64,000 nt of DNA from a virus: positions 22,269 through 86,268 of the IMG/VR virus record IMGVR_UViG_3300027861_000018. One strand, written 5' to 3'. Every line of letters begins with the position of its first letter. Within the stretch, counting starts at the first letter, position 1. This document shows positions 1 to 15,365 of this stretch, piece after piece. The notes below the pieces were generated by a model, which made no database searches, had not been told where the DNA came from, and was given only the letters and a program-made list of their open reading frames with translations. A program made the position numbers and the translations under genes.

Positions 1-2299
1 AGGAGTCGGCCGTGCCTGGCGCGTATCCCGCCATCTGTACAAATATCTTGGTGACCTGCTCTTGATACACCAGCACACCCAGTGAGTCAGAACAGATGGA
101 ATCATACAGGGGATGGACTTGCCTCTCATCACGACGTTTGGGGTTCAGCTTCCTCTTTTTGAACTCCGTCGCCAGCCCCGACCGCGCTGGCCCTGGCCTG
201 TTGAGAGCCACCATCGCCACATTGTCTTCGAAGCTATCAAAGGCGATGCCCTCACAAGCTGCATGTGCGCCAGTGGAATCATATTGGAAGATGCCAACAT
301 AATGGTGATCTGTGAATGCCTGAAGCGTCTCTGGGTTATCGAGCGGCAGCAGCTCATAGTCCAGCTTGAGCCCAGGATTGCGCTTCTCTGCCATCTTGCG
401 CGCGTCATTGAGCACGGTCAGGGTTCGAAGGCCCAAGATGTCGAGCTTGAGCAAGCCCATGCCGCCAACGCCGTACATGTCCCACGCCGCCAACTTGACG
501 ATCAGGTTGTTGCGCATGTGCGTTTCGATTGGCACCACATCCGGGAGCGGGACAGGCGAGGTGATGACGCCGGCTGCATGCACGCCCGGCTGCCTGGCGT
601 GGCCCTCCAGCTTCACCACCAGCGGCAAGACGTGCGGGTGGCGTGCATTGAAGTCGCGACACACTTTGAATTCCACAAAGCTGTCTGCCACAGTCTGGCT
701 CGCACGCTCATCACCGCTGGACCGCTCAACAATGGCGCCCGTCACATCATTGAGCTCTCCAAACGGCACACCAAGCACGCGCCCCACATCCTTCAGCGCG
801 CTCTTGCCCTTCATGCGGCCCACTGTACAGATGAGACTCACCTTGTCTCTGCCCCACTTCTCATGCAAGTAGGTGATGACCTCCTCACGCCGCACATCCT
901 CAAAATCCATATCGATATCAGGCATATCGATACGCTCAGGGCTGATGAAGCGTTCGAACAGCAAACCATGCTCAAGTGGATCCAGAGAGGTGATGCCTAG
1001 CAAGTAACACACCAGCGAGCCAGCTGCAGAACCGCGCCCCGGGCCTGTCATGATTGGCGGCTCTGCCATATCACGGCACCAGTTGATGAGGTCGCGAACA
1101 ATCAGAAAGTACCCAGGGAACTTTGCGCAGGCAATCGGCTCCTTTCCTGCCTTGCGCAGTTCCACGTCCAATTCCTTGTCCAATCGTGCCCTGTACTCTG
1201 CGACTGAATATCCTGTGACCTTGGAGCGCCCCTCGATGTCGCGCCAATCCCACCCTTCAGCGCAGAGACGGGACAGCTCTGCCACATCATCGCTGGAATC
1301 ATGAGGCACTTGCGGCACCAATGCCTTGAAGCGGTCGATGTGCATCTTGTAGGTGTGTGCATCAGAGACCTCCACCGTGGCTTCAATGACCTCTGCGGCC
1401 AATTCCTCACCCATGTATGGGTGATTGGCCAAGAACGCTTCCATCATCTCAGCACCGCTGCGCAAGTGGTAGCCCTGCGGCGACCGCGGGTGATCAGGCT
1501 CCTCCATCGTCATCTTGTTCGCCAGGCACAGCAAGATGGTGTGGGCATCGGTGTCGTCAGCATTGATGTAGTGAACGTCATTGACAGCAATGAGAGGCAA
1601 GCCCAATGCCCTAGCGATGCGGATGAATGCCTTGTTGACTCTGCGGTGGAGCGGTCCGGCGTGCGGCATTAGCTCCAGATACATGCGGCCCTTGTAGGCG
1701 GCAGCCAGCTTCTTGGCGGTGCGGGCGGCTTGGGCCATCCGGCCCTGGATGACGTGATCGCCCAACAGGGAATCGGGGCCGCCAAAGCTGATGGACAGCC
1801 CCTCGTTGTGCTCGATGAGGAGCTCAACGTCAACGCGGGGGATGCCTCGATAGCAACCTCCATCATTGTCCCAGGCGATGGACGTGAGGCGCGACAGCGA
1901 CCTGAAGCCGTTGCCCTCCATCACCCTCGCCGTCACATCCCACGAGCGCATCACCTGCTTGCGTGCCTCCTCTGCTCGGATGACTTTTTGGCGCTCCCGG
2001 CCTTCCAGCCCAAGTGCAACGATATCCTCGTCATCCTTGGTCAATCCGTGCTGACGATGGTTGGTCACGACATTGAGCACTGCGCCATAGATGGGGCGTG
2101 GCTGCTCCTCGCCGTCAGGCGTGTGCACATAGGCTGCCTTCTGAAGGTCGTATGCATATCTCAAGGTTGAGGTGTCGGTGACGCACAGCGTGCGCATCCC
2201 TAACTCTCTGCCTCGATTCACATGGGCCCCAAGCTGCCCAAATGCCTGCAGATAACTATACTCTGTGCGGCGGCGCAACTCTTCATATCGCAACGTCAT
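1..2299 (-). CDS. dnaE: DNA polymerase III alpha subunit (DnaE-like), 3' end cut by window edge
   Basis: C-family replicative DNA polymerase; about 766 residues are visible and the C-terminal part lies outside the window. Residues near 460 read PDIDMDF followed by a GRDKVSLICTVG block, and LLKLDILGLRTLT follows near 630. These carry the three catalytic aspartates of the DnaE palm (the PDFDVDF and FDFLGL motifs of E. coli). PGRGSAAGS, GIFQYDSTGAHAA and LVYQEQV are further family hallmarks. The N-terminal PHP domain is recognisable (TEYSYLQAFGQLG, LGMRTLCVTD) but metal-ligand positions look changed, so it is probably not a nuclease. The ATG follows an AGGAG ribosome site and overlaps the stop of the P-loop kinase gene (ATGA), so it is probably coupled. 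It is the presumed replicase for the helicase, loader and primase encoded at 13-16 kb. Confidence 0.95.
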   Translation of the reverse strand, partial: MTLRYEELRRRTEYSYLQAFGQLGAHVNRGRELGMRTLCVTDTSTLRYAYDLQKAAYVHTPDGEEQPRPIYGAVLNVVTNHRQHGLTKDDEDIVALGLEGRERQKVIRAEEARKQVMRSWDVTARVMEGNGFRSLSRLTSIAWDNDGGCYRGIPRVDVELLIEHNEGLSISFGGPDSLLGDHVIQGRMAQAARTAKKLAAAYKGRMYLELMPHAGPLHRRVNKAFIRIARALGLPLIAVNDVHYINADDTDAHTILLCLANKMTMEEPDHPRSPQGYHLRSGAEMMEAFLANHPYMGEELAAEVIEATVEVSDAHTYKMHIDRFKALVPQVPHDSSDDVAELSRLCAEGWDWRDIEGRSKVTGYSVAEYRARLDKELDVELRKAGKEPIACAKFPGYFLIVRDLINWCRDMAEPPIMTGPGRGSAAGSLVCYLLGITSLDPLEHGLLFERFISPERIDMPDIDMDFEDVRREEVITYLHEKWGRDKVSLICTVGRMKGKSALKDVGRVLGVPFGELNDVTGAIVERSSGDERASQTVADSFVEFKVCRDFNARHPHVLPLVVKLEGHARQPGVHAAGVITSPVPLPDVVPIETHMRNNLIVKLAAWDMYGVGGMGLLKLDILGLRTLTVLNDARKMAEKRNPGLKLDYELLPLDNPETLQAFTDHHYVGIFQYDSTGAHAACEGIAFDSFEDNVAMVALNRPGPARSGLATEFKKRKLNPKRRDERQVHPLYDSICSDSLGVLVYQEQVTKIFVQMAGYAPGTADS

Positions 2300-2898
2300 G
2301 CTTGCTCTCCTGCAAGGCCAAGCCAATCGACAACTGCCGCTTCGACGGCCGACCCTATGTGCTTCTCACCATCCCAGTAAGGAACCTGGCTCACGTCCAA
2401 TCGCAAGGTAGGCAGAGCTGATGCTAGGCGCACTGCGGTGTTGAGCCTGGACCGTACCCCAGACAATCGCTCCGGATGCCGTCTGGTGTCATCTGGCGGC
2501 AGGCGTGCCATCAAATTCTCAACCGGGGCATCCAGGTGAACGATGCGGGCGTCAAGCGGGCGCAGAGTTGACGCCCACCACCTCACCAGCGCAGCGTGGG
2601 CCAGCGGCCCTTCAGGAGCATAGGCCACGCCTGATGGCATCGACCTGTCCAGGAACAACCTGGACGACCAGGCCAAGCCAGCGTTGTGATGAAGGCACGC
2701 CAGCACATCGGCCGCATACACGTCATCCACATAGGTGTTCACAGGCACGCCGCGCTCTCGCCACTCTGCCAGTTGATCCTGCGACAAGCGCCCATCCCTC
2801 CACGCCATCGCGCGATATGGCAGGAAGTCATAGCGCGCGAGTGACTCAGACAGGGTCGTCTTGCCGACACCTTCTGGGCCTTCCAGAACGAGAATCAC
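2296..2898 (-). CDS. P-loop nucleotide kinase, thymidylate-kinase-like
   Basis: A 200-residue P-loop protein. Walker A GPEGVGKTT lies at residues 7-15, and a DRS motif near residue 84 sits where thymidylate kinases have their DRY-type motif. Length and layout fit a dNMP kinase. The GTG start overlaps the TGA of the upstream aminotransferase gene (GTGA), and its own stop overlaps the dnaE start. The neighbours are nucleotide-metabolism genes, so phosphorylation of dTMP or of a modified dUMP derivative is plausible. A kinase acting on 5-hydroxymethyluracil in DNA, as in known thymidine-hypermodifying phages, is the alternative. Substrate cannot be read from the sequence. Confidence 0.75.
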   Translation of the reverse strand: MILVLEGPEGVGKTTLSESLARYDFLPYRAMAWRDGRLSQDQLAEWRERGVPVNTYVDDVYAADVLACLHHNAGLAWSSRLFLDRSMPSGVAYAPEGPLAHAALVRWWASTLRPLDARIVHLDAPVENLMARLPPDDTRRHPERLSGVRSRLNTAVRLASALPTLRLDVSQVPYWDGEKHIGSAVEAAVVDWLGLAGEQA

Positions 2899-4205
2899 GC
2901 GAGTGCTTTCATGAGGGCGGCGTGGGCCGCATCCATCATTCTGAAAGCAATGGCCAGATCACGGGCGCTGATGTTCATTGGCGGATTGAACCTGATGGCG
3001 CCAGCATCGCGCCACGTCATGAGGAGCAGGCCGGCAGCGTGACAAGCGTCACAGAATTGACGCCCATTGTATGGCAAATCATCCCATTCCAGGTCAAATG
3101 CCTTCATCAAGCCATAGCCGTGCACCTTCTTGACGTATGGGCGCTCATTCAGAGCCTTCTCGATGAGGTCGCCCTTGACGATGACCTCGCCCAGGTGGTC
3201 ATCCAGCCACCCGATGAAACGAGTGGAATGATGGCACACCCACTCAGACCCTGCCATACTGTTGAAATGGGTGCCCGGGGTCATCGCCTTGGCAATGGAA
3301 GCGTTGGCGATGACTGCGCTCATAGGGAAGCCCATGGCCAAACCCTTGCCAAGGCAGAGAATGTCAGGGCGCAAGTCAATCTCAGGGTGCTGCCAGCTGC
3401 TGTAATGGCCGCAGCGACCCGCGCCAGCCTGAACATCGTCAAAGATGATCAAGATGCCCTTCGTGTCCGCAAACTCTCGCAACCTCTGGAAGAACACCTT
3501 GGGATAGGTTGTGATGCAATTGTTGCCAAGAACTGGCGCCATGTTGATGGCGCCCACCTGATCCCAACGCAGGTCAGGATCATCGCCCGGCGGCAAACCT
3601 CCGGTGGGCCCCTCCTTCAGGAGGGAGAACCACCAGTTGTCACCATTGTCGAAATACTCGACAGTCCCAAACAACGGGGGCATCGGGCCATACCCCTCCT
3701 TGTGATATGGGCTATCGGTTGAATCAGAGCACGCCATGGCGAAGGCTGTACGCCCATGGAAGTTGCCCTTGAGAGTGACGACGCCCAGCTTGGGGTTGCC
3801 GTCACGGTCTTTGTGCGTGCCATGCTTGGTCTGCCACAATCGGGCTAGCTTGATGGCTGTCTCATTTGCCTCGGCGCCGCTGTTGGCATAGAACACCTTG
3901 CCGCAGTCGCCTTCATCTGTATAGCCTGTGCGATTGACCAACAGAGCCGCATTGTACTCGCGGTGCGGGCCGTGATAGGCGCGAGGCAGGCGGTGGGGTG
4001 CGTTGGTTGTGAGTAGCTCCATGGCTGTCTTCTGAAGAATTGGCGTGTTGTAGCCCATTGAGGCCACGCCTTCATCGTTCCAACAGTCAAGGAGTTTGAG
4101 CCCTGTGTCAGTGATCAGCCACGACCCCTTGCCTTTGACAAAGCACAACGGTACGCGGTGGGTGATGTCAAACAGGTATTGGGCTGGCTTGATGGTGTCG
4201 TCCAA
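2895..4205 (-). CDS. Class III PLP-dependent aminotransferase
   Basis: 436 residues, full length for the ornithine/acetylornithine aminotransferase class. The cofactor-binding run YANSGAEANETAIKLAR begins near residue 106. IFDDVQAGAGR (around 254-264) supplies the aspartate that contacts the pyridine nitrogen, and LGKGLAMGFP carries the Schiff-base lysine at about residue 287. The start is a TTG preceded by AGAGGA; no ATG is available because the frame runs directly into the TGA of the ThyX-like gene, which is in the same frame. Such enzymes are unusual in phages. The context suggests transfer of an amino group in making a modified nucleotide, but a role in host amino-acid or polyamine metabolism is possible. 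Confidence 0.85.
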   Translation of the reverse strand: MDDTIKPAQYLFDITHRVPLCFVKGKGSWLITDTGLKLLDCWNDEGVASMGYNTPILQKTAMELLTTNAPHRLPRAYHGPHREYNAALLVNRTGYTDEGDCGKVFYANSGAEANETAIKLARLWQTKHGTHKDRDGNPKLGVVTLKGNFHGRTAFAMACSDSTDSPYHKEGYGPMPPLFGTVEYFDNGDNWWFSLLKEGPTGGLPPGDDPDLRWDQVGAINMAPVLGNNCITTYPKVFFQRLREFADTKGILIIFDDVQAGAGRCGHYSSWQHPEIDLRPDILCLGKGLAMGFPMSAVIANASIAKAMTPGTHFNSMAGSEWVCHHSTRFIGWLDDHLGEVIVKGDLIEKALNERPYVKKVHGYGLMKAFDLEWDDLPYNGRQFCDACHAAGLLLMTWRDAGAIRFNPPMNISARDLAIAFRMMDAAHAALMKALA

Positions 4206-4214
4206 GATGTCCTC

Positions 4215-5294
4215 TCAGGATGTGCGAAGGGCGTGGGCTGCGACGGTTGCCGCGTGTTGCGGGTCCTCCCCTGACTCCAAGGGGCGGCCTGTATACGGGT
4301 CACGACCCCAGAAAATGGCGCGGCGCATTGCCTCCTCTTCGATGTCAAACATAAGCCTGATTGTGCCATTCTTGTAGGCAGCTCGGGCCTGGTCTGCCAG
4401 GGGTGAGGATTCTCGGCCGAGGAATAGCGGACAGACCGGCAGATTGTGGTCGCGGCCATCAAACCTGCGCTGGATGTCCTCTGGGAAAATGCACCCCGTG
4501 TACTTGGTTCCCTTCATGCACGGCGGGGTGACGAGGCGGCCAAAGCACGGGTGGATGTGGGTTGTGAGTTGGCTGATGATCCCGTTGATGATCGGGCCCC
4601 AATACCCAAGCTGGAGGATGGTGCAGCCTCGCTTCCCAACGATGTGCTGGAGTGTTCGCAGATTGAGGGTCCAACTGAGACGTGAGGTGGCGCCCAGTGG
4701 GATGAGGTCACGGGCATCCTCCAGCGGGAGGCCGCTGGAAGCCCAGCGAGCATACATTGCCTCGATGGTCTCCATGTCCTTGCGCCACCTCAGCACCGCG
4801 TCTGGCCCCATCGCAATCACAGTATCTGGGGTGCGGAAGGCACTGCGCTCGCTGGCGAACGTTGACATGTCGAGAAGTCGCATGGATTGGCTCCACGCGC
4901 TCATGTCTGCCACTTCAGGGATGGTGTCGACTGTGATCCAGTCAGCACCAACGCGCACATCAGGCTTGGTCCCGACGCGATGGCGCACCATCTGCTCCCG
5001 CCAGCCGATGCTGGCATTCTCAATGATGAAGTTGAAACTAACTGCCTCGACAACAGGAACGCCCTCCATCACGCTGGTCATCAAATCTGCCAGCTCAACG
5101 TCACTCATGATCAGCACTTGGCCGACGATGTCATCCAACTCTTCAGTCGTCTTTGACTGAAGCCAGATGATAGCGATGACCTGCATCACGCCCAGACGTG
5201 GATCGGAATTGATGCGGCGCTGAAGGTGGAAGGGCATGCCGCTGACGCCAACCAGTGTGACCTTGGGCGGGTCGGTTGGCTTGACGAGGTCCAT
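4215..5294 (-). CDS. thyX: ThyX-like flavin-dependent thymidylate synthase family protein
   Basis: About 359 residues from an ATG at 5294, chosen because GGAG lies 6 bases upstream; a GTG at 5330 would add 12 residues. Family features are EAVSFNFIIENAS, then REQMVRHR, and later LEDARDLIPL with LNLRTLQHIVGKR, matching the ThyX core in which an RHR motif and a later N-R-L element line the flavin and dUMP sites. In classical ThyX the RHR is followed within ten residues by Ser and Arg. Here RHR is followed by VGTKPDVR and a WSQSMR segment comes only about 30 residues later, so the signature is split. It could methylate dUMP or carry out a variant such as hydroxymethylation; the reaction is unproven. 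It lies 9 bases upstream of the aminotransferase start and in the same frame. Confidence 0.75.
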   Translation of the reverse strand: MDLVKPTDPPKVTLVGVSGMPFHLQRRINSDPRLGVMQVIAIIWLQSKTTEELDDIVGQVLIMSDVELADLMTSVMEGVPVVEAVSFNFIIENASIGWREQMVRHRVGTKPDVRVGADWITVDTIPEVADMSAWSQSMRLLDMSTFASERSAFRTPDTVIAMGPDAVLRWRKDMETIEAMYARWASSGLPLEDARDLIPLGATSRLSWTLNLRTLQHIVGKRGCTILQLGYWGPIINGIISQLTTHIHPCFGRLVTPPCMKGTKYTGCIFPEDIQRRFDGRDHNLPVCPLFLGRESSPLADQARAAYKNGTIRLMFDIEEEAMRRAIFWGRDPYTGRPLESGEDPQHAATVAAHALRTS

Positions 5295-5344
5295 CAAGGT
5301 CTCCAGAGAAACGGGGTTAGTCTCGACCACTCTACAGCGGCGCG

Positions 5345-6298
5345 CTACCTATCAGACAGGAATAGTGGCTTGTTGACATTGATTGTTGCGTCCGGGTTCC
5401 TGCCCCAGTTGGTCTGAACCATGGCGTGGCGCACCTGTTTCCACGACCACACGCGCACAATGTCGCTGTGGACCGGCAAAGACTGATTCCACGGCTGATC
5501 CATCAGCAAGACCGGCTTGACGTGGTGGGTGACCAACTCCAAGCAGTGCTTGTCACGGTCCTCCACGAATGCGACCACCTGTGCCGGCATGATGCTCTGG
5601 TGCACAGCATCCCACTTGTCCTTGTTGAAGAGCAGGATGTCGCACGGCACGCCGTTGTCTTGTAGCCATTGCACGGTATCGGGCCGCACCCGGGCATGCT
5701 CCCATACAGGCCGAGCGGTGACGATGGCCACCAAGCACCCTGCCTCCTGGGCTTGGATGAGCGCCTCTTTGGCCCCCGGCACGAGATCCAAGGTTTGGAA
5801 CCCGCCATCAGCATACCACTGCGCCTTCTTCTCTTCAGTGGAGAGAGTGCCGACCGTTGGGTTGCCGTACTGGCCGCCGGTGGCCTCAAAAAATTTGGAC
5901 AAGTCGGCGACGCAGCTGTCGAGGTCTGTGACAAACACTCGCCTACCCGCCAACTCCACGCGGTATTGATGGAACTTCTGCTCCACATCCAAGGTCTTGG
6001 CGGCAAATCGTTTGCTGATTTGCTTTGGAGTCATGCCGGCAAGGTGAGCGATTGCCATCGCATACTTGAGCACATCAACCATTTCTTCCACGGCATTGCC
6101 GCCGTGCCCTCTCTCTTGCCTCACGACGTGAGGCTTGCGCCGTAGGCTGCGCGCAAGCTCGGTCGCCTCTTCATGCAGGCCCAGCAGCAACTCATCCATG
6201 TATGCAGAGCGTTCTGCGTCGGTCATGAGGTCACGGTCATACCACAGCGTCTGCTGTGCAGCCTGTGCCACAAAAAGGTCTTCAATGGTCGTTGTCAT
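5345..6298 (-). CDS. Fusion of all-alpha NTP pyrophosphatase (dUTPase/MazG-like) and HAD phosphatase
   Basis: 317 residues in two parts. Residues about 1-110 are helical, with HEEATELARSL and later EEMVDVLKYAMAIAHLAGM, the paired acidic helices of dimeric dUTPase/MazG enzymes that split NTPs to NMPs. From about 118 the C-terminal half begins with VFVTDLDSCVADLSKF, close to the HAD DxD nucleophile motif, and continues with VAIVTARPVWEHAR (motif II Thr) and VVAFVEDRDKHC (motif IV acidic residues). The combination would hydrolyse a deoxynucleoside triphosphate and then perhaps the monophosphate, steering the host pool. The ATG overlaps the stop of the small membrane protein gene (ATGA). Substrate is inferred only. 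Confidence 0.75.
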   Translation of the reverse strand: MTTTIEDLFVAQAAQQTLWYDRDLMTDAERSAYMDELLLGLHEEATELARSLRRKPHVVRQERGHGGNAVEEMVDVLKYAMAIAHLAGMTPKQISKRFAAKTLDVEQKFHQYRVELAGRRVFVTDLDSCVADLSKFFEATGGQYGNPTVGTLSTEEKKAQWYADGGFQTLDLVPGAKEALIQAQEAGCLVAIVTARPVWEHARVRPDTVQWLQDNGVPCDILLFNKDKWDAVHQSIMPAQVVAFVEDRDKHCLELVTHHVKPVLLMDQPWNQSLPVHSDIVRVWSWKQVRHAMVQTNWGRNPDATINVNKPLFLSDR

Positions 6299-6573
6299 TC
6301 CGCCTCCTCTTCAGGCTCGTCTACATCCGAGTTGTCACACATGTACTTCACGCCTGTCCCGACAAGGGGGTGCACAGCGCAAGGCACCAAGGTCCCGGGT
6401 GCGCACTTTGCGACCAGCGTGTGGGCGCGGTCCGGCTTGATGCTGATTGCGGCCATGCAGTCTACCTCAATCACCCTTGTCGGCTTGGCATCAAATGCCA
6501 GAAACGTATCTGTCAAGATGCCGAGGGCAGCGGCAATACCGATAGCGACAACAGCCCAGCGCACTCTAGTCAT
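6295..6573 (-). CDS. Small membrane-anchored or secreted protein
   Basis: 92 residues starting at MTRVRWAVV, chosen because this ATG overlaps the TGA of the FAD enzyme gene (ATGA); its own TGA overlaps the start of the dUTPase-HAD gene in the same way. An N-terminal hydrophobic segment (about residues 6-24, AVVAIGIAAALGILTDTFL) is a signal anchor or signal peptide. The rest has three cysteines and an acidic tail ending DEPEEEAE. No family recognised. Sitting inside a nucleotide-metabolism run, it is odd for being membrane-associated. Confidence 0.6.
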   Translation of the reverse strand: MTRVRWAVVAIGIAAALGILTDTFLAFDAKPTRVIEVDCMAAISIKPDRAHTLVAKCAPGTLVPCAVHPLVGTGVKYMCDNSDVDEPEEEAE

Positions 6574-7538
6574 GCGGTCAACTCCTCGTGGCAAGCGTCG
6601 ACCACCTGATCCACTGTGATGCGTGAATTCCATTGCGCAAAACGCCCTGCCAATCGAATATTTGACCCAGAGCCAGCGCGCCAAGTGCGCCAAGTCACAG
6701 GGTGAAGGTGCCCCGGCAGCTGGCGCGGTGGCGCGAGCAACGTACTGCCCAGACGGGCTAAGTCGACGGCCAAGGAGTGCGTGCTGCGATCATTCCACTC
6801 AAGCTCCAATGCGATGTTGCCATCATCATCAACAACAGGGCGAACCCTGTGAATTGCCTCCAGCCATGGCGTGTACGTGTAATCGTAATGCCCCAGATGC
6901 GCCGTTCTGCCGGTGAGCGAGATTCTGGCGACCTTGAGCCACTCATGGGGGCACACGGGCGCTTCCCTGCCCTCCAGCTGAAGCAACTTGGCCAAAATGG
7001 GGAGTGGCACCGTGCTCGTGATGCGGCCGCTGGCGCTCTCGATCCATCGACGTGGACCAACACATGCCATAGGACCTGATATGACTGTCGCGTGCGCCTG
7101 TATGATGTCGCAGTGTCGCTCCACCAAGCCAAACAGACGGCTGAAGTCTGTCAAGACTCGCTCGCCCCCAGTGCCGCCAAAATTCATGACGCCCGGCCCA
7201 TATCCTTCATAGGTCCCGCGAGTCTTGCCATAATGCAAGCGCTGGACCGCCTCCAGGTGACCGCCCAAGCCTTGAGGATAGGGCAGCACCCGGCCTTTAT
7301 GTGTGAGCACCCCTCCGCTCATTGCCTTCAGCGTGAAGTCCATCTTGTGCGCGTGCAGCAGAGCCCTCACCCCGACGCTATTGCGAAGGTATTGGAAACC
7401 GCCCTTGGCATAGCTACCACCCAGATGGCTGGGCTCAATGACAGCAACTGTCTCGCCCTTCCTCCATGCGGCAAGGGATAAAGCGATGAGGCAGCCAGAC
7501 ATGCCGCCGCCCAAGATCACGTGGTCATAGTGCGCCAT
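6570..7538 (-). CDS. FAD/NAD(P)-binding oxidoreductase-like protein
   Basis: 322 residues. The N-terminus HVILGGGMSGCLIALSLA is a Rossmann dinucleotide-binding loop (GGGxSG), and an acidic residue follows the second strand (VAVIEPSHLGGSYA), as in FAD-dependent oxidoreductases. The remainder does not match a named family by eye. The ATG overlaps the upstream TAA (TAATG) and the stop overlaps the next start, so it belongs to a tightly coupled operon with the ThyX-like enzyme and the aminotransferase. FAD enzymes act as lyases on amino-acid-modified thymidines in some hypermodifying phages; whether this one does so is inference. Confidence 0.65.
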   Translation of the reverse strand: MAHYDHVILGGGMSGCLIALSLAAWRKGETVAVIEPSHLGGSYAKGGFQYLRNSVGVRALLHAHKMDFTLKAMSGGVLTHKGRVLPYPQGLGGHLEAVQRLHYGKTRGTYEGYGPGVMNFGGTGGERVLTDFSRLFGLVERHCDIIQAHATVISGPMACVGPRRWIESASGRITSTVPLPILAKLLQLEGREAPVCPHEWLKVARISLTGRTAHLGHYDYTYTPWLEAIHRVRPVVDDDGNIALELEWNDRSTHSLAVDLARLGSTLLAPPRQLPGHLHPVTWRTWRAGSGSNIRLAGRFAQWNSRITVDQVVDACHEELTA

Positions 7539-8584
7539 TAGGCAATACTCTCTGTTATGCGCGGCCAGTCACCGCTCTTGATGATCCGTGCCAATACTCG
7601 CGCGACTTGGCTCACGTGACGCTCCTCGACCCCCTCAATGACGGTTGGTCGTCGGGCATCCTTCCACCGCTTGACGCGCAACGTCTTGGGCAAAACAGCC
7701 CTGGCCATCTCCACCATTGCATCAGGCGCTACCAATTGAATCTTGATCATGGGCTGACGCTTGGATGGATACAGATACATCACGGCCAATGGAGTCGCCT
7801 TGGCGTTGTTCTTGCGGACGTACATCACATAGTGATCGCTTCTGCGAAGCCTGTCCCGGTAGAACATGCCCCCAGCGTGACACCGGTGTCGATACTCTCC
7901 AGCAAATTCAACAGGGATTGCTCTGGCAAAGGCCGCCATCATCTTCTTGGCGATGGCTCGTGACTCAGCATACACATACGGGTCGTGAGGGAACCCGATG
8001 CGCGGGCGGGGTGAGCCAGGCTTGCTTGATGCGGTGACCTCTTGCTTGCTCTGCGCATCAGGCGTGGGCTGGGTGGGCCGAAGCACAACTGACCGATACT
8101 GAGTGGCAGAAGGCGGTCCTTCAGCATCATCATCGGCCGCCATGAACCATATCGTCCGCTCTGGAGTCGTGTTGACCGCGGCTGACCTGATTTGAATCTT
8201 GCGACACATATTGCGCCAGACACAGGGCGGCTCGGCCCCGGGGCCGATCAGGCCGTCGCAAGTTGGGTCGCCGGGCTCATGGTGGCCGACACACCCAGGG
8301 TTGTTGAATCTGTGCCTGGCTGCTGCCGCCCAGTGGGGCAACCCCTCCGGAATGGACCCGTGCTCCACCCACGTCACAGTTGCCGTCTGCTTGTTCACAG
8401 CAACGCATACGCGCCCCCACTCATACGTCTCGACGAGCAGACTCCATCCCTTGTCCCTCAGGCGCACAGGGCGATGCTGCTTGGTTGGCCTGGGGTCCAG
8501 CCCGAAGGCTGCGATGTAGTCATGGACCATCTTGGCATCCATGCGGGCGCCAATGGCGACACGGTATAGCGTTTCAGACTTCAT
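7538..8584 (-). CDS. Unknown protein with a Cys-rich metal-binding segment
   Basis: 348 residues, not recognised. Around residues 95-130 there is a cluster NPGCVGHHEPGDPTC followed by PPCVWRNMCRK: four cysteines plus histidines in about 35 residues, suggesting a zinc or iron-sulfur site. A Pro/Ser/Gln-rich linker (about 165-195) separates this from a C-terminal domain rich in basic residues. The ATG lies inside the 3' end of the sigma-like gene (11-base overlap) and the stop overlaps the FAD gene start. Possible roles are nucleic-acid binding or redox chemistry. Confidence 0.6.
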   Translation of the reverse strand: MKSETLYRVAIGARMDAKMVHDYIAAFGLDPRPTKQHRPVRLRDKGWSLLVETYEWGRVCVAVNKQTATVTWVEHGSIPEGLPHWAAAARHRFNNPGCVGHHEPGDPTCDGLIGPGAEPPCVWRNMCRKIQIRSAAVNTTPERTIWFMAADDDAEGPPSATQYRSVVLRPTQPTPDAQSKQEVTASSKPGSPRPRIGFPHDPYVYAESRAIAKKMMAAFARAIPVEFAGEYRHRCHAGGMFYRDRLRRSDHYVMYVRKNNAKATPLAVMYLYPSKRQPMIKIQLVAPDAMVEMARAVLPKTLRVKRWKDARRPTVIEGVEERHVSQVARVLARIIKSGDWPRITESIA

Positions 8585-9260
8585 AGCCGCGCTCCCTGAG
8601 CAGTGCTCTGGCAGCCCTGCGAATGCGCCCTGCTTCGCACTCCACCTGCCCGTATGTCATGTCCAAGTACATGGCGATGTGCCGCTTGGTGACCTTGAAC
8701 ACACCTGAATTGCCTGTCAGGTTACGCACCATGGCGTGAAGCTCCCAGTCAGGATTGACCATTGCCTTGAGAATCTTGCGTTGGCCTTTGTTGAGACGAG
8801 CCATCAACAAGATGACTATGGTGCGCGCCTCCGTATTGCCCTCCCCATAGTCAGCCACCTGCTCTGGGGTCAAGCCGCTGATCCCCTGTGCCGGCAAGCT
8901 GTCGACGTATCTGCTGCTGCCATCCTCTGACACCAGGCGGTCCAGCGAGCAGGGGCGGCGAGGCACCTTGTTCCACTCGCCTGTCCCCACGTCCTGCTCC
9001 CACACCCTCGGCATGCGCATCAGAGCATATGCCTTGTTGGCGATGTTCCGATACTCATTGTCCAAGAAATACCCCACATAATTGGGGAGCTTCACGCCCT
9101 TGCTTGGGTCGTATGTCTGAACTGCGCGATGGGCGTGCCAACGCCCTTCTTGGAGCAGGTCGGCATACTCGCCCACGCCCTTGCGCACCAGGACACGGAC
9201 CTTGAAATGGATGAGGCCGATGAATTGCGGCTCGACATCCTCATATCTCAGATTGTTCAT
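8574..9260 (-). CDS. RNA polymerase sigma-factor-like protein
   Basis: 228 residues. Residues about 32-75 (GEYADLLQEGRWHAHRAVQT, DPSKG, NYVGYFLDNEYRN) match sigma-70 region 2, where an acidic DLxQEG segment is followed by aromatic residues that bind and melt the -10 element. The C-terminal part contains a plausible region-4 helix-turn-helix (DMTYGQVECEAGRIRRAAR). The start has a strong CTGGAGTAC ribosome site of the type seen at several genes here. It could direct host RNA polymerase to middle or late phage promoters. Confidence 0.7.
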   Translation of the reverse strand: MNNLRYEDVEPQFIGLIHFKVRVLVRKGVGEYADLLQEGRWHAHRAVQTYDPSKGVKLPNYVGYFLDNEYRNIANKAYALMRMPRVWEQDVGTGEWNKVPRRPCSLDRLVSEDGSSRYVDSLPAQGISGLTPEQVADYGEGNTEARTIVILLMARLNKGQRKILKAMVNPDWELHAMVRNLTGNSGVFKVTKRHIAMYLDMTYGQVECEAGRIRRAARALLRERGYEV

Positions 9261-9275
9261 TTTGTACTCCAGGGG

Positions 9276-11291
9276 TTATGCGTGTCGGTGGAGGTTGAAC
9301 CAGTGGGGCGCGACCTCTAATATCATGTCAGCCAATTGGCCTAAGTTGTTGCAGGTGCGGTGATTGGGGTAGTAGTGGCGCACGGAATCATCCATGATTC
9401 CGAACCCCCAAACCTCAATGCCAGCTGATATCGCTGCGGCAATGCACGCCTTGAGCTCGCGGCGCATTTTCGCCGAGTTGCCTGGCGCTGCGGGTTGGCC
9501 GTCAGACAAGACCATCAAGATGCGGCGCTTGGCTCTGCGGCACCGCAGCTCTTGGAGAGCCCACTTGACCGAGTCTGGGTCAGCATTCTCCCACAGCCTA
9601 ACCTCTGCTGCCACGCGGCTGCGAACCTGCGACCAGTTCTCATCCCAATCGCACCAGTTGTAGTGCTCAATGGGCGACAGACGACCGTAATGATGCGTGT
9701 GCGTGTAACTTCCGGTGATGGAGTTGCCTGCCGTGAAACCTGTGGCACTAAGCTGAATGCTGTTAGGCGTTGTCCTGTTGATGGAATCCAGCAAGTCACC
9801 CAGAAGCAGGATGCCCTGCTGCATCAGGGCGAATTTGGAACCTGCCATGGAGCCAGAGCAGTCGCCCAACAGCTTGATAGCCACATCATGCGTCTCGCCC
9901 GGCACCAGGCGTGTCCTGATGTTATCGACTGGGCGCCCTGCTTCGCGGATGTTTGCGCGCCACATGGCGCGGCGGTCAAGTCGCCCGTGGCGCTGAGCAT
10001 ATACCTTTGTGGACTGAGACCGCGTAGCCAGCAAGGTGCGCATCCTAGCAGACAGCGTGGCCGACTCCTTGCTAACCCCCTTCGCGATGCGCTCTGCCGC
10101 AGATAGGGTGGCCGCTGTGACGGCTGGCGTCGCAATCATATCCTTCTTGGCTGCGCCGGGGTGCACCGTGTAGTCGGTCATCCCATCCGCCTTGGCCGTG
10201 TTGGTGGGCGCAGCGCCAGCTTGCCTGATTATGGCTTCATCAATCGCTTCATGAATAGGCGACTCAGTGTCAGTGAGCGTGAGAGACCCGGCCTTGAGCG
10301 CCCTAAGTGCCTTCAAGACCTCCTCTGCTGACACTGGCGCCATGTCTGGGCTCTCGGCGCTCTTGTCGCGCTTGGCGCCTCCACCCCCTTCATCCCCTTC
10401 ATCCCCTTCACCCTCTTCACCCTCTTCACCCTCTTCAGCAGGGGCCTCGCTGTCACCGCCTGGCGACATCATACCTTTCAACTCTTCATCAGGGATGGAA
10501 GTGCCGGCGCTGTAAAGCGCGTCAGCATAGCACAGCGCCAGATTCCAAGCATCCCAAACGCTCCCAAGGGTCTCTGGACTGAGCAAGGCATGGAAGCCGT
10601 CAAGAGCCTTCAACACGGTCAGGGACTCTTGGCACAAGAAGCTGTAATCATAACCCCAGGCGTGGAAGATGATCCCGCACCCAACCTGATACGTTGGGTC
10701 AACTGATCTGGGATTAGCTGCCAGCTTCTTGCCCCAACTCCGATGGGCGTGATCACGCCCGGCCTTGAGGTGCTGCGCCACGCCTCGATAACGCTCACCA
10801 GCCCGCCGCTCAATTCGCACATCCTCCACCACATTGAACATCATAGCAACAAGATTGGCGCCAAGTAGTCCGGCGACGACATTCAGAAGGCCGACAGGGG
10901 TGGTGCGATAGGTGCATCGGGTCCCTGGCGGCAGGGCGAGTAATTTGATGTGGTCTGTGACTATGAGGCACGTCCTCTCCCAGATGGCGGCATTGATGGC
11001 AACTGACGCCCTGTCGGCCGCGGCGTGCTCTGCCTCCACCTGCACTTTGACGTGCTCTGATTCATGATTGACCTTGGCCCACACCAAGTCCATATCTTCA
11101 TCAGCCAGCTCTGCGACGTTTGTCGGCAGAGTGACCGTCCCTAGCATGTCAGTCTTGCACTGACCTGACTGGAAGATGACTCGCAGGTCGTGGCGGTCAC
11201 TGAACGTTTGGGCGATACGCTCAAGGCGCCCCCCTATGAGGGGCAATCGCGTCTCAATGGACTTGGCATTCTTGATAGCAGCTTTTGCCAC
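9276..11291 (-). CDS. CobT-like von Willebrand A domain protein
   Basis: 671 residues from a GTG with AGGAG 6 bases upstream. The C-terminal third is a VWA domain whose MIDAS motif is DCSGSM, followed by later MIDAS elements including VLSDGQPA. The N-terminal part is helical with an HESEH segment near residue 76. A middle region of Glu/Gly repeats (about residues 285-315) is a flexible linker, as in CobT. It follows the gene for a MoxR/CobS-like AAA+ ATPase, the usual partner of such proteins. In cellular systems these pairs insert metal (CobS-CobT) or remodel proteins (MoxR/RavA-ViaA). The phage role is unknown; a chaperone-type role is inferred. Confidence 0.8.
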   Translation of the reverse strand: MAKAAIKNAKSIETRLPLIGGRLERIAQTFSDRHDLRVIFQSGQCKTDMLGTVTLPTNVAELADEDMDLVWAKVNHESEHVKVQVEAEHAAADRASVAINAAIWERTCLIVTDHIKLLALPPGTRCTYRTTPVGLLNVVAGLLGANLVAMMFNVVEDVRIERRAGERYRGVAQHLKAGRDHAHRSWGKKLAANPRSVDPTYQVGCGIIFHAWGYDYSFLCQESLTVLKALDGFHALLSPETLGSVWDAWNLALCYADALYSAGTSIPDEELKGMMSPGGDSEAPAEEGEEGEEGEGDEGDEGGGGAKRDKSAESPDMAPVSAEEVLKALRALKAGSLTLTDTESPIHEAIDEAIIRQAGAAPTNTAKADGMTDYTVHPGAAKKDMIATPAVTAATLSAAERIAKGVSKESATLSARMRTLLATRSQSTKVYAQRHGRLDRRAMWRANIREAGRPVDNIRTRLVPGETHDVAIKLLGDCSGSMAGSKFALMQQGILLLGDLLDSINRTTPNSIQLSATGFTAGNSITGSYTHTHHYGRLSPIEHYNWCDWDENWSQVRSRVAAEVRLWENADPDSVKWALQELRCRRAKRRILMVLSDGQPAAPGNSAKMRRELKACIAAAISAGIEVWGFGIMDDSVRHYYPNHRTCNNLGQLADMILEVAPHWFNLHRHA

Positions 11292-11328
11292 GGCGCACTC
11301 CTGGTTGCGGGCATAGGGGGCGACCCGC

Positions 11329-11345
11329 TCAGCTACCTTAGCTGA
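11329..11345 (-). promoter_or_regulatory. Short inverted repeat upstream of the VWA gene
   Basis: TCAGCTA, a 3-base loop and TAGCTGA form a perfect 7-bp hairpin in the 126-base gap between the AAA+ and VWA genes, about 40 bases upstream of the VWA start. No T-run follows, so it is not a good terminator. It could be an operator, an RNA-processing site or attenuation of VWA expression. Confidence 0.3.
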
Positions 11346-11417
11346 AGCGCCGCCACAAGGCTAATTAATTTTATGGCATTCGCCGATAACGCTGGCTGAT
11401 GCCAAGCGCGACCAAGC

Positions 11418-12776
11418 TCAACGGCCGACCACCTGACGGATGATGTCACCCACCGTCTTGTGATCTGGGTCTGCCGGATCAATGCCATTGGTGACACTAA
11501 GCCGAGCTGCCAGATGAATGTTCTTTGTGGCGTGCGCGAGACGCGCCCACACCAGCGACTTCCGCGGGCTGATTGAAGCTCGACAACGCGCCTTGGCCTT
11601 GGCTTCATTGACCTTGATCGCTGTCTGAACAATCATCTTGGCGTCGGAAAGTGCGATGGATGTCTTTCCAACCAGCATCTTGACCCACACCTTGTCAGCT
11701 GGGTACGCGTGGCGCATCTTGATGCCCCATCGATCCAGCGCTGCTGCATTGAGGACGAATGTGCCAGCATAGTCGCCAGTCATATCACCTTGCCCAGACG
11801 TGTTGGCGCTTGCCATGATGCGGAAAGCAGGGTGTGCGTCGACCACTTCGCCGCTAGCGAGGAGCAATTGACAGTGAGGTTTGCCGTCAGCAATGGCCTT
11901 CAATGGGTCGTGGTGGCGCTCAGTCAACCTCTGCAAGACCGTGTGCACCTGGGGCGGCGCAGCGTCAATCTCATCAATCAGAAGCAGATGGCCGCGGCGC
12001 ATGGCGGTTACCACAGGGCCATCTTCCCATGCTGTGACGACACTCCCCTCATCGGTCTCGACCATGACCACGTCACCAACAAGATCAGATGGGCGCATAT
12101 CCCCATAGAAATTGACCCTGGTCACGGGTTGATTCGACAGGGCGCTGATGATGTTGACCAGCGAAGTCTTGCCGCTTCCGGTGGGCCCAATGATGAGCAC
12201 ATTTTCAACCATGGCGATGCCCAGGGCAATCTGCGCCAGAGCTGCCTCGACGCTCCCGCTGATCTCATATCGGTCGTCGTAAGGTGCGACCATGGATGCA
12301 TCCGCAGCACCCCACCCATCCCAGATACCAAGGCGTGCCTTGGCCGAACCGCACGGAAGCTCCATCCATTTCGTGACTCGCGGACCAATGTGCCCGAGCG
12401 GCGCCGGCGCTGCCGCAAGCGAACTGCTCAGCGAAACCCCCTCTTCAGATGCGGGTGCGGGCGCTGGGGTGGGTGCTGGCTCTGGTGCAGGAGGACGGGC
12501 AGCACCCTTGGCTCCGGCTCTGATGCGGGCCGCATTGTACGCGCTCTGCGTCGGCGCTCCCGGATACTTGAGCCGATATGCCTCCACGCGGTCAAGTCCA
12601 GGTTTCAACATCTCTGGATGAGCCTTTCCCAGATGGACGGGCAGAGCGTGAAGCCTGCGCCCGCACTCGCAGCAAATGATTTTGTCGGCGCGACTTGTCT
12701 CATCACGTCCCATGGTGGTCGCCATGATCACCCTGTCTCGCAGCGACAGGTCTGCGATATCGATACGCTTGCTCAT
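11418..12776 (-). CDS. MoxR/CobS-like AAA+ ATPase with N-terminal Ros/MucR-like zinc finger
   Basis: 452 residues from an ATG at 12776 with GGAG about 8 bases upstream; upstream in-frame sequence includes a repetitive leader and is probably untranslated. Residues about 30-75 read CCECGRRLHALPVHLGKAH then YRLKYPG, resembling the C2H2 Ros/MucR finger. An Ala/Pro linker follows. The ATPase has Walker A GPTGSGKT, Walker B LLLIDEIDAA and an N-containing sensor 1 (RIMASANTS), typical of the CobS/MoxR clade. The partner is the CobT-like VWA protein encoded next. The zinc-finger fusion suggests a nucleic-acid or protein-docking role. Confidence 0.8.
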   Translation of the reverse strand: MSKRIDIADLSLRDRVIMATTMGRDETSRADKIICCECGRRLHALPVHLGKAHPEMLKPGLDRVEAYRLKYPGAPTQSAYNAARIRAGAKGAARPPAPEPAPTPAPAPASEEGVSLSSSLAAAPAPLGHIGPRVTKWMELPCGSAKARLGIWDGWGAADASMVAPYDDRYEISGSVEAALAQIALGIAMVENVLIIGPTGSGKTSLVNIISALSNQPVTRVNFYGDMRPSDLVGDVVMVETDEGSVVTAWEDGPVVTAMRRGHLLLIDEIDAAPPQVHTVLQRLTERHHDPLKAIADGKPHCQLLLASGEVVDAHPAFRIMASANTSGQGDMTGDYAGTFVLNAAALDRWGIKMRHAYPADKVWVKMLVGKTSIALSDAKMIVQTAIKVNEAKAKARCRASISPRKSLVWARLAHATKNIHLAARLSVTNGIDPADPDHKTVGDIIRQVVGR

Positions 12777-12801
12777 CCGTGTACTCCAGTGTGCCGTGGC
12801 G

Positions 12802-12828
12802 CCGGGGTTGCCGGGGTTGCCGGGGTTG
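12802..12828. repeat. Tandem 9-bp repeat, three units
   Basis: Three perfect copies of CCGGGGTTG lie in the 130-base gap between the primase stop and the AAA+ start, within the presumed 5' leader of the ATPase message. Function unknown; slippage or protein binding are both possible. Confidence 0.6.
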
Positions 12829-12855
12829 CGCGTTGACTGACGGAACCTTAACTGA

Positions 12856-12869
12856 GCAAGGCACCTTGC
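12856..12869 (-). promoter_or_regulatory. GC-rich inverted repeat between primase and AAA+ genes
   Basis: GCAAGG, CA, CCTTGC is a perfect 6-bp inverted repeat about 40 bases downstream of the primase stop. A run of T/A lies on the upstream side for minus-strand transcripts, so it lacks the trailing U-run of a terminator. It may be an operator or a weak RNA structure. Confidence 0.3.
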
Positions 12870-12906
12870 GGCTACAACTTTTTTTGCCTTAAAGCAATAT
12901 CTGTGC

Positions 12907-13914
12907 TCAATCCCAAGGATTGTGAAAGAGCTTTGCTGCGGCAGCAAGTCCATCAAGCGGAGTGGCAACGAGCGCGGCCTCAATAATGTGACGGCGGGCA
13001 GCCTTTTTGTTGGCCACAGTATCGGGGTCAATGCCGCGAGGCAACTTGACCACCTTCATTGAGCGGAATCGATGAGCAATGTGAGAGCATTTGACCACCA
13101 CGTCTTGGTATGCCTCGCCATCAGGCACCACAATTAGCTCTGGCGGGTCCAGCTCAGCCAATAATTCCACTTGTGGGTCCCGCAAGTGGCTGCCGAAATA
13201 AGGGCACGACTGGAAGCCCCAGCCATCCCATCGTATGGCGTCAAAAATGCCCTCCATCACGTATACGGGGGCACCTGGGTCCAATCTGTCAAAGCCGCCC
13301 AAGAAATTGGCTTGGAGGGTCCCTGGGTTGAGATACTTGAATTTGGACCTGCCGGACATGTCCCGAGCAACAAAGCTCGTCATGCCGCCGCACACAACAG
13401 GAATGACCACGCGCTCGCGATACTTGCCACTCATGCAGTAGCCCATCCCCCAACGTCTAGCAGCTGATTGATTGATGCCCCTGTTCTTCAAGTATGGCGG
13501 GATGCGATAGGTGTTGCGACCCCTGTCCCAGCAAGGCCTGAAGCCCGGCGGCATCGGCACCGAGAGATCAACGGCAGCGGCGGCGCTAAGCGTCCCATCC
13601 TTCAAAGACTGGAACATCTGGGCCAGCTCTGACATTGGTCGAGCTTTGATGATGCCGCGAGCGAAGCGCCCAACGACCTCCACCGCTTGGGCGTATCCGC
13701 AACCCTCAATCTGCATCACCAGGGCGGCAATGTTGCCTCGTGCTTTGCAGTGCCCGGAATAGCAGTTGAACTTCAACTTGCGAATATTCACATACATCTT
13801 GTCGGACCGACCGCAGAAGAGGCAACTGCGCAAGACCAATTCATCCCCATCCCGGTGCTTTTGACGGCGCAGGACAGAGAGATTCCTGAGCAGATAGTCT
13901 TCTGCCGCACTCAC
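12907..13914 (-). CDS. DnaG-like phage primase
   Basis: 335 residues. The N-terminal zinc ribbon uses C31, C34, C51 and a SGHC at 53-56. The TOPRIM domain follows, with VYVMEGIFDAIRW (Glu221-Gly222) and VVPDGEAYQD (Asp265), the metal-binding acidic residues. It is shorter than bacterial DnaG and lacks an obvious helicase-binding C-terminal domain. It would make RNA primers at the phage fork with the DnaB-like helicase and DnaE. The GTG start overlaps the stop of a 29-residue open frame (GTGA). Confidence 0.85.
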   Translation of the reverse strand: MSAAEDYLLRNLSVLRRQKHRDGDELVLRSCLFCGRSDKMYVNIRKLKFNCYSGHCKARGNIAALVMQIEGCGYAQAVEVVGRFARGIIKARPMSELAQMFQSLKDGTLSAAAAVDLSVPMPPGFRPCWDRGRNTYRIPPYLKNRGINQSAARRWGMGYCMSGKYRERVVIPVVCGGMTSFVARDMSGRSKFKYLNPGTLQANFLGGFDRLDPGAPVYVMEGIFDAIRWDGWGFQSCPYFGSHLRDPQVELLAELDPPELIVVPDGEAYQDVVVKCSHIAHRFRSMKVVKLPRGIDPDTVANKKAARRHIIEAALVATPLDGLAAAAKLFHNPWD

Positions 13915-14000
13915 GGATCACACAGCACGCTTGAGGAATGACCTGCTTGGGCGTGGCCGCGCGTTGCAAGGGAGACAAGCAAAAAAATTGCGGTCATCAT
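13911..14000 (-). CDS. Putative 29-residue peptide with hydrophobic N-terminus
   Basis: Short frame MMTAIFLLVSLATRGHAQAG plus 9 residues, looking like a signal peptide or membrane peptide. It has AGAGG 6 bases upstream of its ATG, and its TGA overlaps the primase GTG start, an arrangement typical of coupled genes. It may be a real micro-protein or simply a leader that couples primase translation. Confidence 0.4.
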   Translation of the reverse strand: MMTAIFLLVSLATRGHAQAGHSSSVLCDP

Positions 14001-14051
14001 CGCGCACCTCTGGAATTGGGCACAAGCGCCCTTGGTGATTATATCCCCATC

Positions 14052-15365
14052 TCATTCATCCTCATCCTCTTCATCGTCTTCTGGGACGTGTTCAAAATGC
14101 GACCGGCTAAGATCCACCTTCATGGGAATGAGAATCTTGCCGCGGCCGCCGCGGTTCTTGGCCAAAAACCACCGCATCCGGTCTTCACCAGCCTCTCTCC
14201 TGGTCTGGTTCAGCGTCACCACCCGGCTGGCAATCCGAGCCTTGTCATATGCCTCACTGAGATGCTCTGCTGCTGCGATACGATTCAGCGCCTCCTTGGA
14301 CAACTGAACAGTGACGGCAATGGGGATGCCCCTCTCATCTGCGATGGACTTCAACTCCCAGAATGCGTTGGCAGCGTCCAATCGCTTCTCCTTGTTGGTT
14401 TGCGTCGGCGTGAGGTGATCTCCGCAGTCAACCCATAACATCTGACAAGGACGCCCTTCCATCGCAACGTCATCCAGAGCTTGCTCCAGCGTGACGATGC
14501 TGGCGTGGCGAGGCGACATGTGGACCACCTTGAGCTTGCGCGCCAAGCGCTTTTTCATGCGCGCCATCTTATCAACCAGTCGATTCAACTCGCCCTTGGT
14601 GAGATCATGCACGGCGACGCGATCACTTGCCGCACCCATGAACTTGGCATCCAACCGATCAAACATGATGTCCAATCCATTCTCTGTATCAACCAAGAGG
14701 GTGTTGTAGCCGCGTGCAGCGGCGTGGTAAGCTCCATTGATCGCTGTGTGACTCTTGCCAATACCCGTGAGGCCAGCAAAGATGCACATGTCGCCAGGGA
14801 TGAGGCCGCCGCCCGTTAAATCGTCTAGCCGATCATTGCCTGTGGTGACTCTGTAATAGCTCTCTGGGTCTTCACTGCGCTTCTTGCGCATGGCCATCCG
14901 AGCTTCCATCTCCTCAATCCAGTCACCCTCTTGATAGGTGCCAACTGGCCGGTGCCTTGCCGCGACGTGGAGCGCCTCTGTGGCGCCATCCACATCCCCC
15001 CTCTCCATTTTCTTGATGGCCCCTTCAATGCCTGTAGACAGGGCCGCATAGCTGGCGAACTTGCGCAGCTGCTCAAGGGAAGCATGAGCATGAACGACCT
15101 TCCTGTCCAGGAGTGCTCGCGCCTCTTTGAGGTGGTTCTTGGCCTTCTCAGGGTCGCTTGCGAACTCTGCCCTGATCTGAGTCGCTATTAGTTTGGCTGT
15201 GCATTTTTCGCCGGCGGGCAGTTGCACAGTTTGGCGCCAGCACCACTCCAACTCTGTTCCTGTGAAATGCTCTGGCTGAACAATGCGCGCCGCCTGGACT
15301 CTATATGCAGAGTCAGCCATGGCCTTGGCAACAATGTCCTTCTGAAAGCCTACATCAAAAGCCAT
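14052..15365 (-). CDS. DnaB-like replicative helicase
   Basis: 437 residues of RecA-fold helicase. Walker A is GLTGIGKS at 198-205 and Walker B is MLWVDCGD near 310. LNQTRREAGEDRMRWFLAKNRGG near the C-terminus fits the arginine-finger and DNA-binding end of DnaB proteins. An N-terminal helical domain precedes a linker around 145-170. The tail is highly acidic. The ATG directly follows the TAG of the loader gene (TAGATG), so loader and helicase are coupled. It unwinds DNA at the fork with the primase encoded downstream. Confidence 0.85.
   Translation of the reverse strand: MAFDVGFQKDIVAKAMADSAYRVQAARIVQPEHFTGTELEWCWRQTVQLPAGEKCTAKLIATQIRAEFASDPEKAKNHLKEARALLDRKVVHAHASLEQLRKFASYAALSTGIEGAIKKMERGDVDGATEALHVAARHRPVGTYQEGDWIEEMEARMAMRKKRSEDPESYYRVTTGNDRLDDLTGGGLIPGDMCIFAGLTGIGKSHTAINGAYHAAARGYNTLLVDTENGLDIMFDRLDAKFMGAASDRVAVHDLTKGELNRLVDKMARMKKRLARKLKVVHMSPRHASIVTLEQALDDVAMEGRPCQMLWVDCGDHLTPTQTNKEKRLDAANAFWELKSIADERGIPIAVTVQLSKEALNRIAAAEHLSEAYDKARIASRVVTLNQTRREAGEDRMRWFLAKNRGGRGKILIPMKVDLSRSHFEHVPEDDEEDEDE

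Follow-up and report, generated by a model that had tools for sequence, protein, structure and literature searches.

The virus record IMGVR_UViG_3300027861_000018 (86,268 bases, possibly incomplete) belongs to an uncultured, contractile-tailed phage with genes mainly on the minus strand, and its bases 22,269-86,268, a stretch of 64,000 nucleotides that we call the window, carry at positions 2296-8584 (minus strand) a cassette of enzyme genes that runs directly into the gene for the DNA polymerase DnaE. On balance, we lean slightly towards reading this cassette as a pre-replicative pathway to a C5-modified deoxyuridine nucleotide that would replace thymidine, or part of it, in the phage genome. 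A preliminary description of the sequence had proposed a thymidine-modification operon. That the genes form a functional unit with a role in nucleotide or DNA metabolism is supported by conservation of the run in a related virus, by recurrence of a locus with an FAD (flavin adenine dinucleotide) enzyme, HAD, ThyX and DnaE in other viruses, and by loss of two active-site residues, His53 and Tyr91, from ThyX; an action on DNA is inferred. In order of transcription, the genes are u348, the FAD enzyme, a small open reading frame (ORF), MazG-HAD, ThyX, the aminotransferase, the kinase and DnaE:

7538-8584, minus strand: u348, a family-less protein that opens the conserved run, with a segment containing Cys and His (CVGHHEPGDPTCDG..PPCVWRNMC)
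6570-7538, minus strand: FAD-dependent enzyme, 322 amino acids, UDP-galactopyranose-mutase-like; Pfam DAO/NAD_binding_8, N-terminal FAD motif
6295-6573, minus strand: small ORF, 92 amino acids, with a hydrophobic N-terminal stretch (putative small membrane protein); ATGA overlap at each end
5345-6298, minus strand: MazG-like and HAD phosphatase fusion, 317 amino acids; Pfam HAD/NT5C 6e-5, MazG only 0.05
4215-5330, minus strand: non-canonical ThyX homologue, 371 amino acids; Pfam Thy1 1.2e-16
2895-4205, minus strand: pyridoxal phosphate (PLP) class III aminotransferase, 436 amino acids; Pfam Aminotran_3 1.7e-55
2296-2898, minus strand: P-loop kinase (thymidylate-kinase-like), 200 amino acids; GPEGVGKT motif, AAA_28 2e-6, phrog_761 thymidylate kinase 9e-7
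1-2299, minus strand, running past the window edge: DnaE (DNA polymerase III alpha), recognized by Pfam; 1562 amino acids in total including an intein

The intergenic distances from u348 through DnaE are -1, -4, -4, +14, +9, -4 and -4 nucleotides, with the DnaE ATG at 2299 and a 4-nucleotide overlap between kinase stop and DnaE start, so that the genes were rightly called coupled and directly upstream of DnaE. Family matches and 60-76% conservation in the relative described below likewise confirmed the six originally named proteins as open same-strand genes, to which the small ORF at 6295-6573 has to be added as a seventh. Two of the earlier labels held in part: the supposed dUTPase/MazG-HAD fusion does have its HAD part, yet the 86-kb record contains no trimeric dUTPase (PF00692) and the MazG match is weak (0.05), and u348, described as Cys-rich, has about six conserved cysteines without being extreme in content.

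The contig IMGVR_UViG_3300037190_000686 (L004) carries u348, the FAD enzyme, MazG-HAD, ThyX, the aminotransferase, the kinase and DnaE in the same order as the window, at identities of 62%, 60%, 76%, 71%, 73%, 68% and 83%, respectively, and because the whole run is kept at 60-76%, chance ORFs are ruled out. Upstream of the cassette, both viruses have primase, CobS/CobT-like and sigma-like genes. The small ORF does not occur in L004, where the FAD and MazG-HAD genes abut. Scans with the window's ThyX, aminotransferase, FAD enzyme and u348 returned this contig as the sole relative with a full cassette, u348 had no Pfam, PHROG or NCBIfam match and no relative besides that in L004, and INPHARED held no phage relative of the window FAD enzyme, u348 or kinase.

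Evaluating ThyX further, we compared 27 viral ThyX, that of the window included, with 30 bacterial ThyX as a control and with Thermotoga maritima ThyX. The viral group (n = 27) includes proteins of PB1, WFH, WR01, Troll4, Hawkeye, Onyinye, Sampudon, Nocardia P3.1, LIS04, SP-15 (gp130) and L004 as well as further contigs; the T. maritima reference row agrees with the segment in the PDB. This comparison revealed that His53 and Tyr91 are each present in 0 of the 27 viral-group proteins and in all 30 bacterial ones, as well as in both canonical phage ThyX, and that His79 is kept in 2/27 as against 30/30. Residues that bind FAD and deoxyuridine monophosphate (dUMP), namely Gln75, Arg78, Ser/Thr88, Arg90, Arg147 and Arg174, are each retained in 26 of the 27, the window protein among them. 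Because the window ThyX has no His around the His53 position and no Tyr around the Tyr91 position, these losses are independent of the alignment. By its sequence, the window protein is a member of a divergent viral ThyX group that lacks both residues and not a canonical ThyX; it scored 47.5 bits against the NCBI equivalog TIGR02170, below the cut-off of 87.9. It also has a 23-amino-acid insertion within the ThyX motif (RHRVG[..]SAWSQSMRL), and a C-terminal PxC(4-9)CxF motif is common to most of the viral group, including the window, and to none of the bacterial controls. Loss of Asn85/Glu86, considered as a further sign of altered function, was dropped, as bacterial ThyX carry Ser and Gln there. 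In the ThyX tree a single branch (84/56; support in 84% of bootstrap trees) separates the viral group from all others, with the window protein beside LIS04_124 (99/82) and SP-15 gp130 (90/84), a weak sequence-based grouping that carries a long-branch warning.

In T. maritima ThyX, the His53 that the viral group lacks stacks against the pteridine of folate and forms a hydrogen bond with Tyr91, which is proposed to serve as the acid that drives water out of the flavin carbinolamine; Tyr91 mutants are 100-1000-fold less active (PMC11940539, PMC8316439). With both the folate-stacking residue and the acid gone, the window ThyX would use a non-standard carbon donor or end step; formaldehyde, an aldehyde, is usable by ThyX as a carbon donor (PMC8316439).

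The second line of evidence is a locus that recurs across viruses. In the cluster-D mycobacteriophages Hawkeye and Troll4, in Onyinye, in Nocardia P3.1 and in Gordonia Sampudon, an 'oxidoreductase' that carries an FAD motif, an HAD nucleotidase and a small MazG-like protein precede DnaE, mostly together with a FabG-like short-chain dehydrogenase/reductase (SDR), and a divergent ThyX lies behind DnaE. PB1 (Pbunavirus) has ThyX, HAD/polynucleotide kinase (PNK), exonuclease and DnaE, and both Serratia WR01 (Myosmarvirus) and E. coli WFH (Wifcevirus) have ThyX, HAD/PNK, FabG and DnaE. A scan in which the actinophage FAD enzyme was the query retrieved 29 viral contigs, which were then searched with a profile for each part: HAD lies next to the FAD gene in 26/29, DnaE is present in 24/29 and ThyX lies within 10 kb in 19/29, and most contigs without the full set end too early. 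Six contigs, about four of them distinct (L047, L048, L051, L053, L054 and L059), have the window's own order of FAD enzyme, HAD, ThyX and DnaE. Around the canonical phage ThyX controls (Desulfovibrio phage 7757 and SP-15 gp9), no FAD enzyme, HAD, SDR or DnaE of these families was found nearby. We found no description of this FAD-HAD-(MazG-like)-(SDR)-DnaE-ThyX viral locus in the open literature.

What ties the window to this locus is the HAD family, the divergent ThyX group, an FAD enzyme and a DnaE neighbor, in the same gene order in some viruses. The HAD half of the window fusion falls within the HAD family that adjoins FAD, ThyX and DnaE genes in other viruses (hhalign 97%, E 2e-11; DQP(W/Y)N motif). 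A deep profile of the actinophage FAD family ranks the window FAD enzyme first of 13 window proteins (E 0.003, with pairwise scores at chance), and three collinear blocks (GxGxxG..QYL, STVPxxILA and GRxxxW) are common to both. The differences are that the recurring locus was found to have neither a class III aminotransferase nor a separate P-loop kinase, that its MazG-like protein stands on its own and is of a different type, and that many of its members have an SDR, which the window cassette lacks and which an SDR profile did not find in L002-L004. Similarly, PB1, Wifcevirus and Myosmarvirus resemble the window in their divergent ThyX with a C-terminal Cys motif, HAD/PNK-type gene and DnaE, whereas they have no annotated UDP-galactopyranose mutase (UGM)-like enzyme or aminotransferase; Wifcevirus and Myosmarvirus have an SDR, and Myosmarvirus a glyoxalase-like gene, where the window is without an SDR. 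Hawkeye gp72 and Troll4 gp64, tried as kinase homologues, have no P-loop and look MazG-like by eye, yet gave no match to the MazG half of the window fusion.

Several of the contigs hold further features. Most of the contigs L033-L045, L047, L048, L051 and L053 encode DnaE in two separate genes, one for the PHP part and one for the polymerase part, as does mycobacteriophage Onyinye. In L048, positions 9167-11150 between the two DnaE pieces of an FAD-HAD-ThyX locus encode DpdA (3.7e-59), QueC (5.2e-46) and a possible precursor transporter; DpdA and QueC belong to 7-deazaguanine DNA modification. L044 has a protein of the uracil-DNA-glycosylase family and a dCTP-deaminase-like protein at 12738-14238 in its FAD-HAD-SDR-DnaE stretch, possibly relevant to the handling of deoxyuridine.

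Under the pathway that we favor, MazG would cut unwanted deoxynucleoside triphosphates to monophosphates and so supply dUMP, and the altered ThyX, with reduced FAD, would add a carbon unit to C5 of dUMP, its donor or end step differing from that of normal methylation. The side chain may then be tailored by the UGM-like flavoenzyme together with the class III aminotransferase, most simply from a carbonyl to a primary amine, HAD would remove phosphate from unmodified or intermediate monophosphates, the P-loop kinase would phosphorylate the finished monophosphate, and DnaE would polymerize the modified nucleotide. The order of these steps, the amine and the entry of the product into DNA are all inferred. 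The MazG, HAD and kinase genes beside a polymerase fit a nucleotide that is made before replication, and the recurrence of related enzyme sets in many viruses suggests a decorated thymine that protects DNA, and the recurring locus probably modifies thymine; the DpdA and QueC genes within the L048 locus count in favor of DNA modification too.

For the FAD enzyme, an AlphaFold model from 22 rows reached a pLDDT (predicted local distance difference test) of 50, as against 37 with two sequences, and its best PDB matches were UGMs (E 1.5e-4), which we take as a hint only because of that model score. A search of viral structures returned nothing significant, and Pfam gave no match to the UGM family. 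Catalysis by UGM, as by ThyX, proceeds through covalent adducts at N5 of the flavin, a point made in PMC8316439. Among bacterial genomes, the scan for FAD-enzyme relatives gave Rossmann-motif matches in Bacillota only. Three contigs (L013-L015) were set aside as FAD relatives, the matches being limited to a short stretch and L013 being a tail-protein contig. In the aminotransferase, the FDDVQ and LGKGL (Schiff-base Lys) motifs are intact, and its nearest solved relatives are acetylornithine aminotransferases; its score lies under every NCBIfam cut-off shown. The window kinase is weakly like SP-15 gp134 and LIS04_126 (E 1.3e-4).

Among the closest known systems is that of Bacillus phage SP-15. 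Its DNA has proven 5-(4,5-dihydroxypentyl)uracil (DHPU), which is made at the nucleotide level before DNA synthesis, and gp130, its second ThyX (termed Thy1), was proposed as the hydroxymethyluridylate synthase (PMC5977210). ThyX as the entry enzyme in place of ThyA, presented in the preliminary description as a new design, is thus an idea already on record. Both SP-15 and the window have a divergent ThyX without Tyr91 in the vicinity of a P-loop kinase (gp134 in SP-15) and an HAD (gp135 in SP-15). They differ in that a FabG-type SDR adjoins ThyX in SP-15, which also carries a sugar/teichoic gene cluster and whose polymerase is of the PolA type, with no aminotransferase or UGM-like enzyme annotated near gp130 and a ThyX identity of only 17%. 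A canonical ThyX, gp9, which has both His53 and Tyr91, is encoded by SP-15 as well.

Amine-bearing thymines occur in the DNA of M6, ViI and PhiW-14, as 5-(2-aminoethyl)deoxyuridine (5-NedU), 5-(2-aminoethoxy)methyldeoxyuridine (5-NeOmdU) and putrescinylthymine, and a convergent amine in the window virus is plausible for that reason. The pathways of these three phages begin with a ThyA-type hydroxymethylase. They have a thymine-directed logic in common with the window, with a thymidylate-synthase-type enzyme, a kinase, and PLP and other tailoring enzymes, and they differ from it in the ThyA-type start and in being post-replicative, the side chain being added via a 5-hydroxymethyldeoxyuridine (5-hmdU) DNA kinase and transferases (PMC6449724). 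Profiles of six cassette proteins gave no convincing match among the ORFs of the M6 and PhiW-14 stretches fetched, two-sequence profiles limiting sensitivity. With these results, with no ThyA in the record, and with an FAD enzyme that is UGM-like in a low-confidence model and not a demonstrated lyase, the detailed analogy first drawn with established hypermodifying phages is not supported.

Wifcevirus phages are resistant to nearly all tested restriction systems, with no cause stated (PMC11990801). The ThyX-HAD/PNK-FabG-DnaE locus of Wifcevirus WFH (L020 8632-15189) is a candidate cause; this link is drawn by our analysis, the locus being unmentioned in the source section. This resistance and the weak ThyX grouping with SP-15 gp130 are both hints of base modification.

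A broader reading, which we put forward tentatively and with some doubt, is that a widespread viral locus with a neofunctionalized ThyX, a flavoenzyme, an HAD and an SDR or aminotransferase uses flavin chemistry and a new carbon donor to turn dUMP into hypermodified thymine nucleotides before the adjacent DnaE replicates. The window version would end in an amine and be one form of a second way to hypermodified DNA, independent of ThyA and common to PB1, Wifcevirus, cluster-D mycobacteriophages and SP-15. If this is true, hundreds of sequenced phages, including therapy-used Pbunaviruses and restriction-resistant Wifceviruses, carry unrecognized DNA-protection chemistry that runs via flavin (ThyX) and not ThyA, and the half-century-old problem of SP-15 dihydroxypentyluracil gains an entry enzyme family that can be tested through its tractable relatives in E. 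coli, Pseudomonas and Mycobacterium smegmatis. In the open literature (subscription papers lay outside the search), no paper save that on SP-15 joined ThyX with hypermodification by name; as far as this search reached, what is new is that His53 and Tyr91 are lost together, that the locus recurs, that it may be linked to Wifcevirus resistance and that a variant has an aminotransferase, a UGM-like enzyme and a kinase, and what was already known is ThyX as an entry enzyme, as proposed for SP-15 (PMC5977210).

Several observations weigh against a pathway to modified thymine. The placement of the window ThyX beside SP-15 gp130 joins very long branches, and the window FAD enzyme appears akin to the recurring FAD family at the superfamily level only. 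Contig scans and a profile search of the 29 viral contigs placed the aminotransferase in no module except those of the window and L004, two related viruses on which the amine step therefore depends. Wifcevirus remains susceptible to EcoP1_I, and among the scanned genes of the possibly incomplete 86-kb record we noticed no transferase of the glycosyl, acyl or aGPT type. Finally, MazG, HAD, kinase and ThyX are also part of ordinary dTTP supply.

That last point has its own explanation, in which a fast-evolving but working ThyX makes dTMP, MazG and HAD clean the pool, the kinase makes dTDP, and the FAD enzyme and aminotransferase are passengers. Phages often carry ThyX or ThyA for dTTP (PMC7824862), and the thymidylate-kinase-like kinase, the Pfam Thy1 match, the retained dUMP and FAD residues and the absence of ThyA (PF00303) from the possibly incomplete record would all suit such a supply. 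We nonetheless consider it unlikely, given that His53 and Tyr91 are gone from the entire viral group and that Tyr91 changes are so costly in T. maritima ThyX (PMC8316439, PMC11940539), that the window ThyX falls far under the equivalog cut-off, that SP-15 retains canonical gp9 besides its divergent ThyX, and that an FAD enzyme recurs with HAD and ThyX.

It is also conceivable, and in our view improbable, that the ThyX locus acts on another substrate, such as dCMP, a free nucleotide serving as an anti-defense signal or decoy, or RNA. The altered active site without a known product, the C-terminal Cys motif absent from bacterial ThyX, and the capacity of the locus to house other modification chemistry, as seen in L048, would agree with this, whereas DnaE adjacency in nearly every locus and the company of kinase, MazG and HAD point to a polymerase substrate, and the dUMP-contact arginines are kept. 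A mixed auxiliary-metabolism operon, in which the substrates of the aminotransferase and UGM-like flavoenzyme are amino acids or sugars of the host, surface glycans for instance, and the two enzymes only share a transcript with nucleotide genes, would suit the nucleotide-sugar substrate suggested by a UGM-like fold, the acetylornithine aminotransferase relatives and a composition found in two viruses only, and is very improbable, since both genes lie inside and not at the edge of the conserved overlapping run and a flavoenzyme-HAD-ThyX order recurs elsewhere.

Beyond the cassette, the window encodes a portal, head protease, sheath, tape measure and baseplate together with DnaB, a DnaC-like loader, primase, helicase, RecA, SbcC/SbcD-like proteins and a 5'-3' exonuclease. 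The window DnaE has an in-frame intein-like insertion of about 297 amino acids (CLTGETLI...IISHN|S; window 1-2299 and L003 7879-12000) ahead of a conserved SYGFNKSHSAAY segment, and the DnaE of L004 is without it. At 8574-9260, a sigma-70-region-2-like protein (55% in L004) overlaps the start of u348, and at 9276-13031 a CobT-like VWA protein adjoins a CobS/MoxR-like AAA+ protein, a kind of CobS/CobT-like phage chaperone pair noted for jumbo phages (PMC7824862). The tail sheath protein (35577-38339) is unusually long at 920 amino acids.

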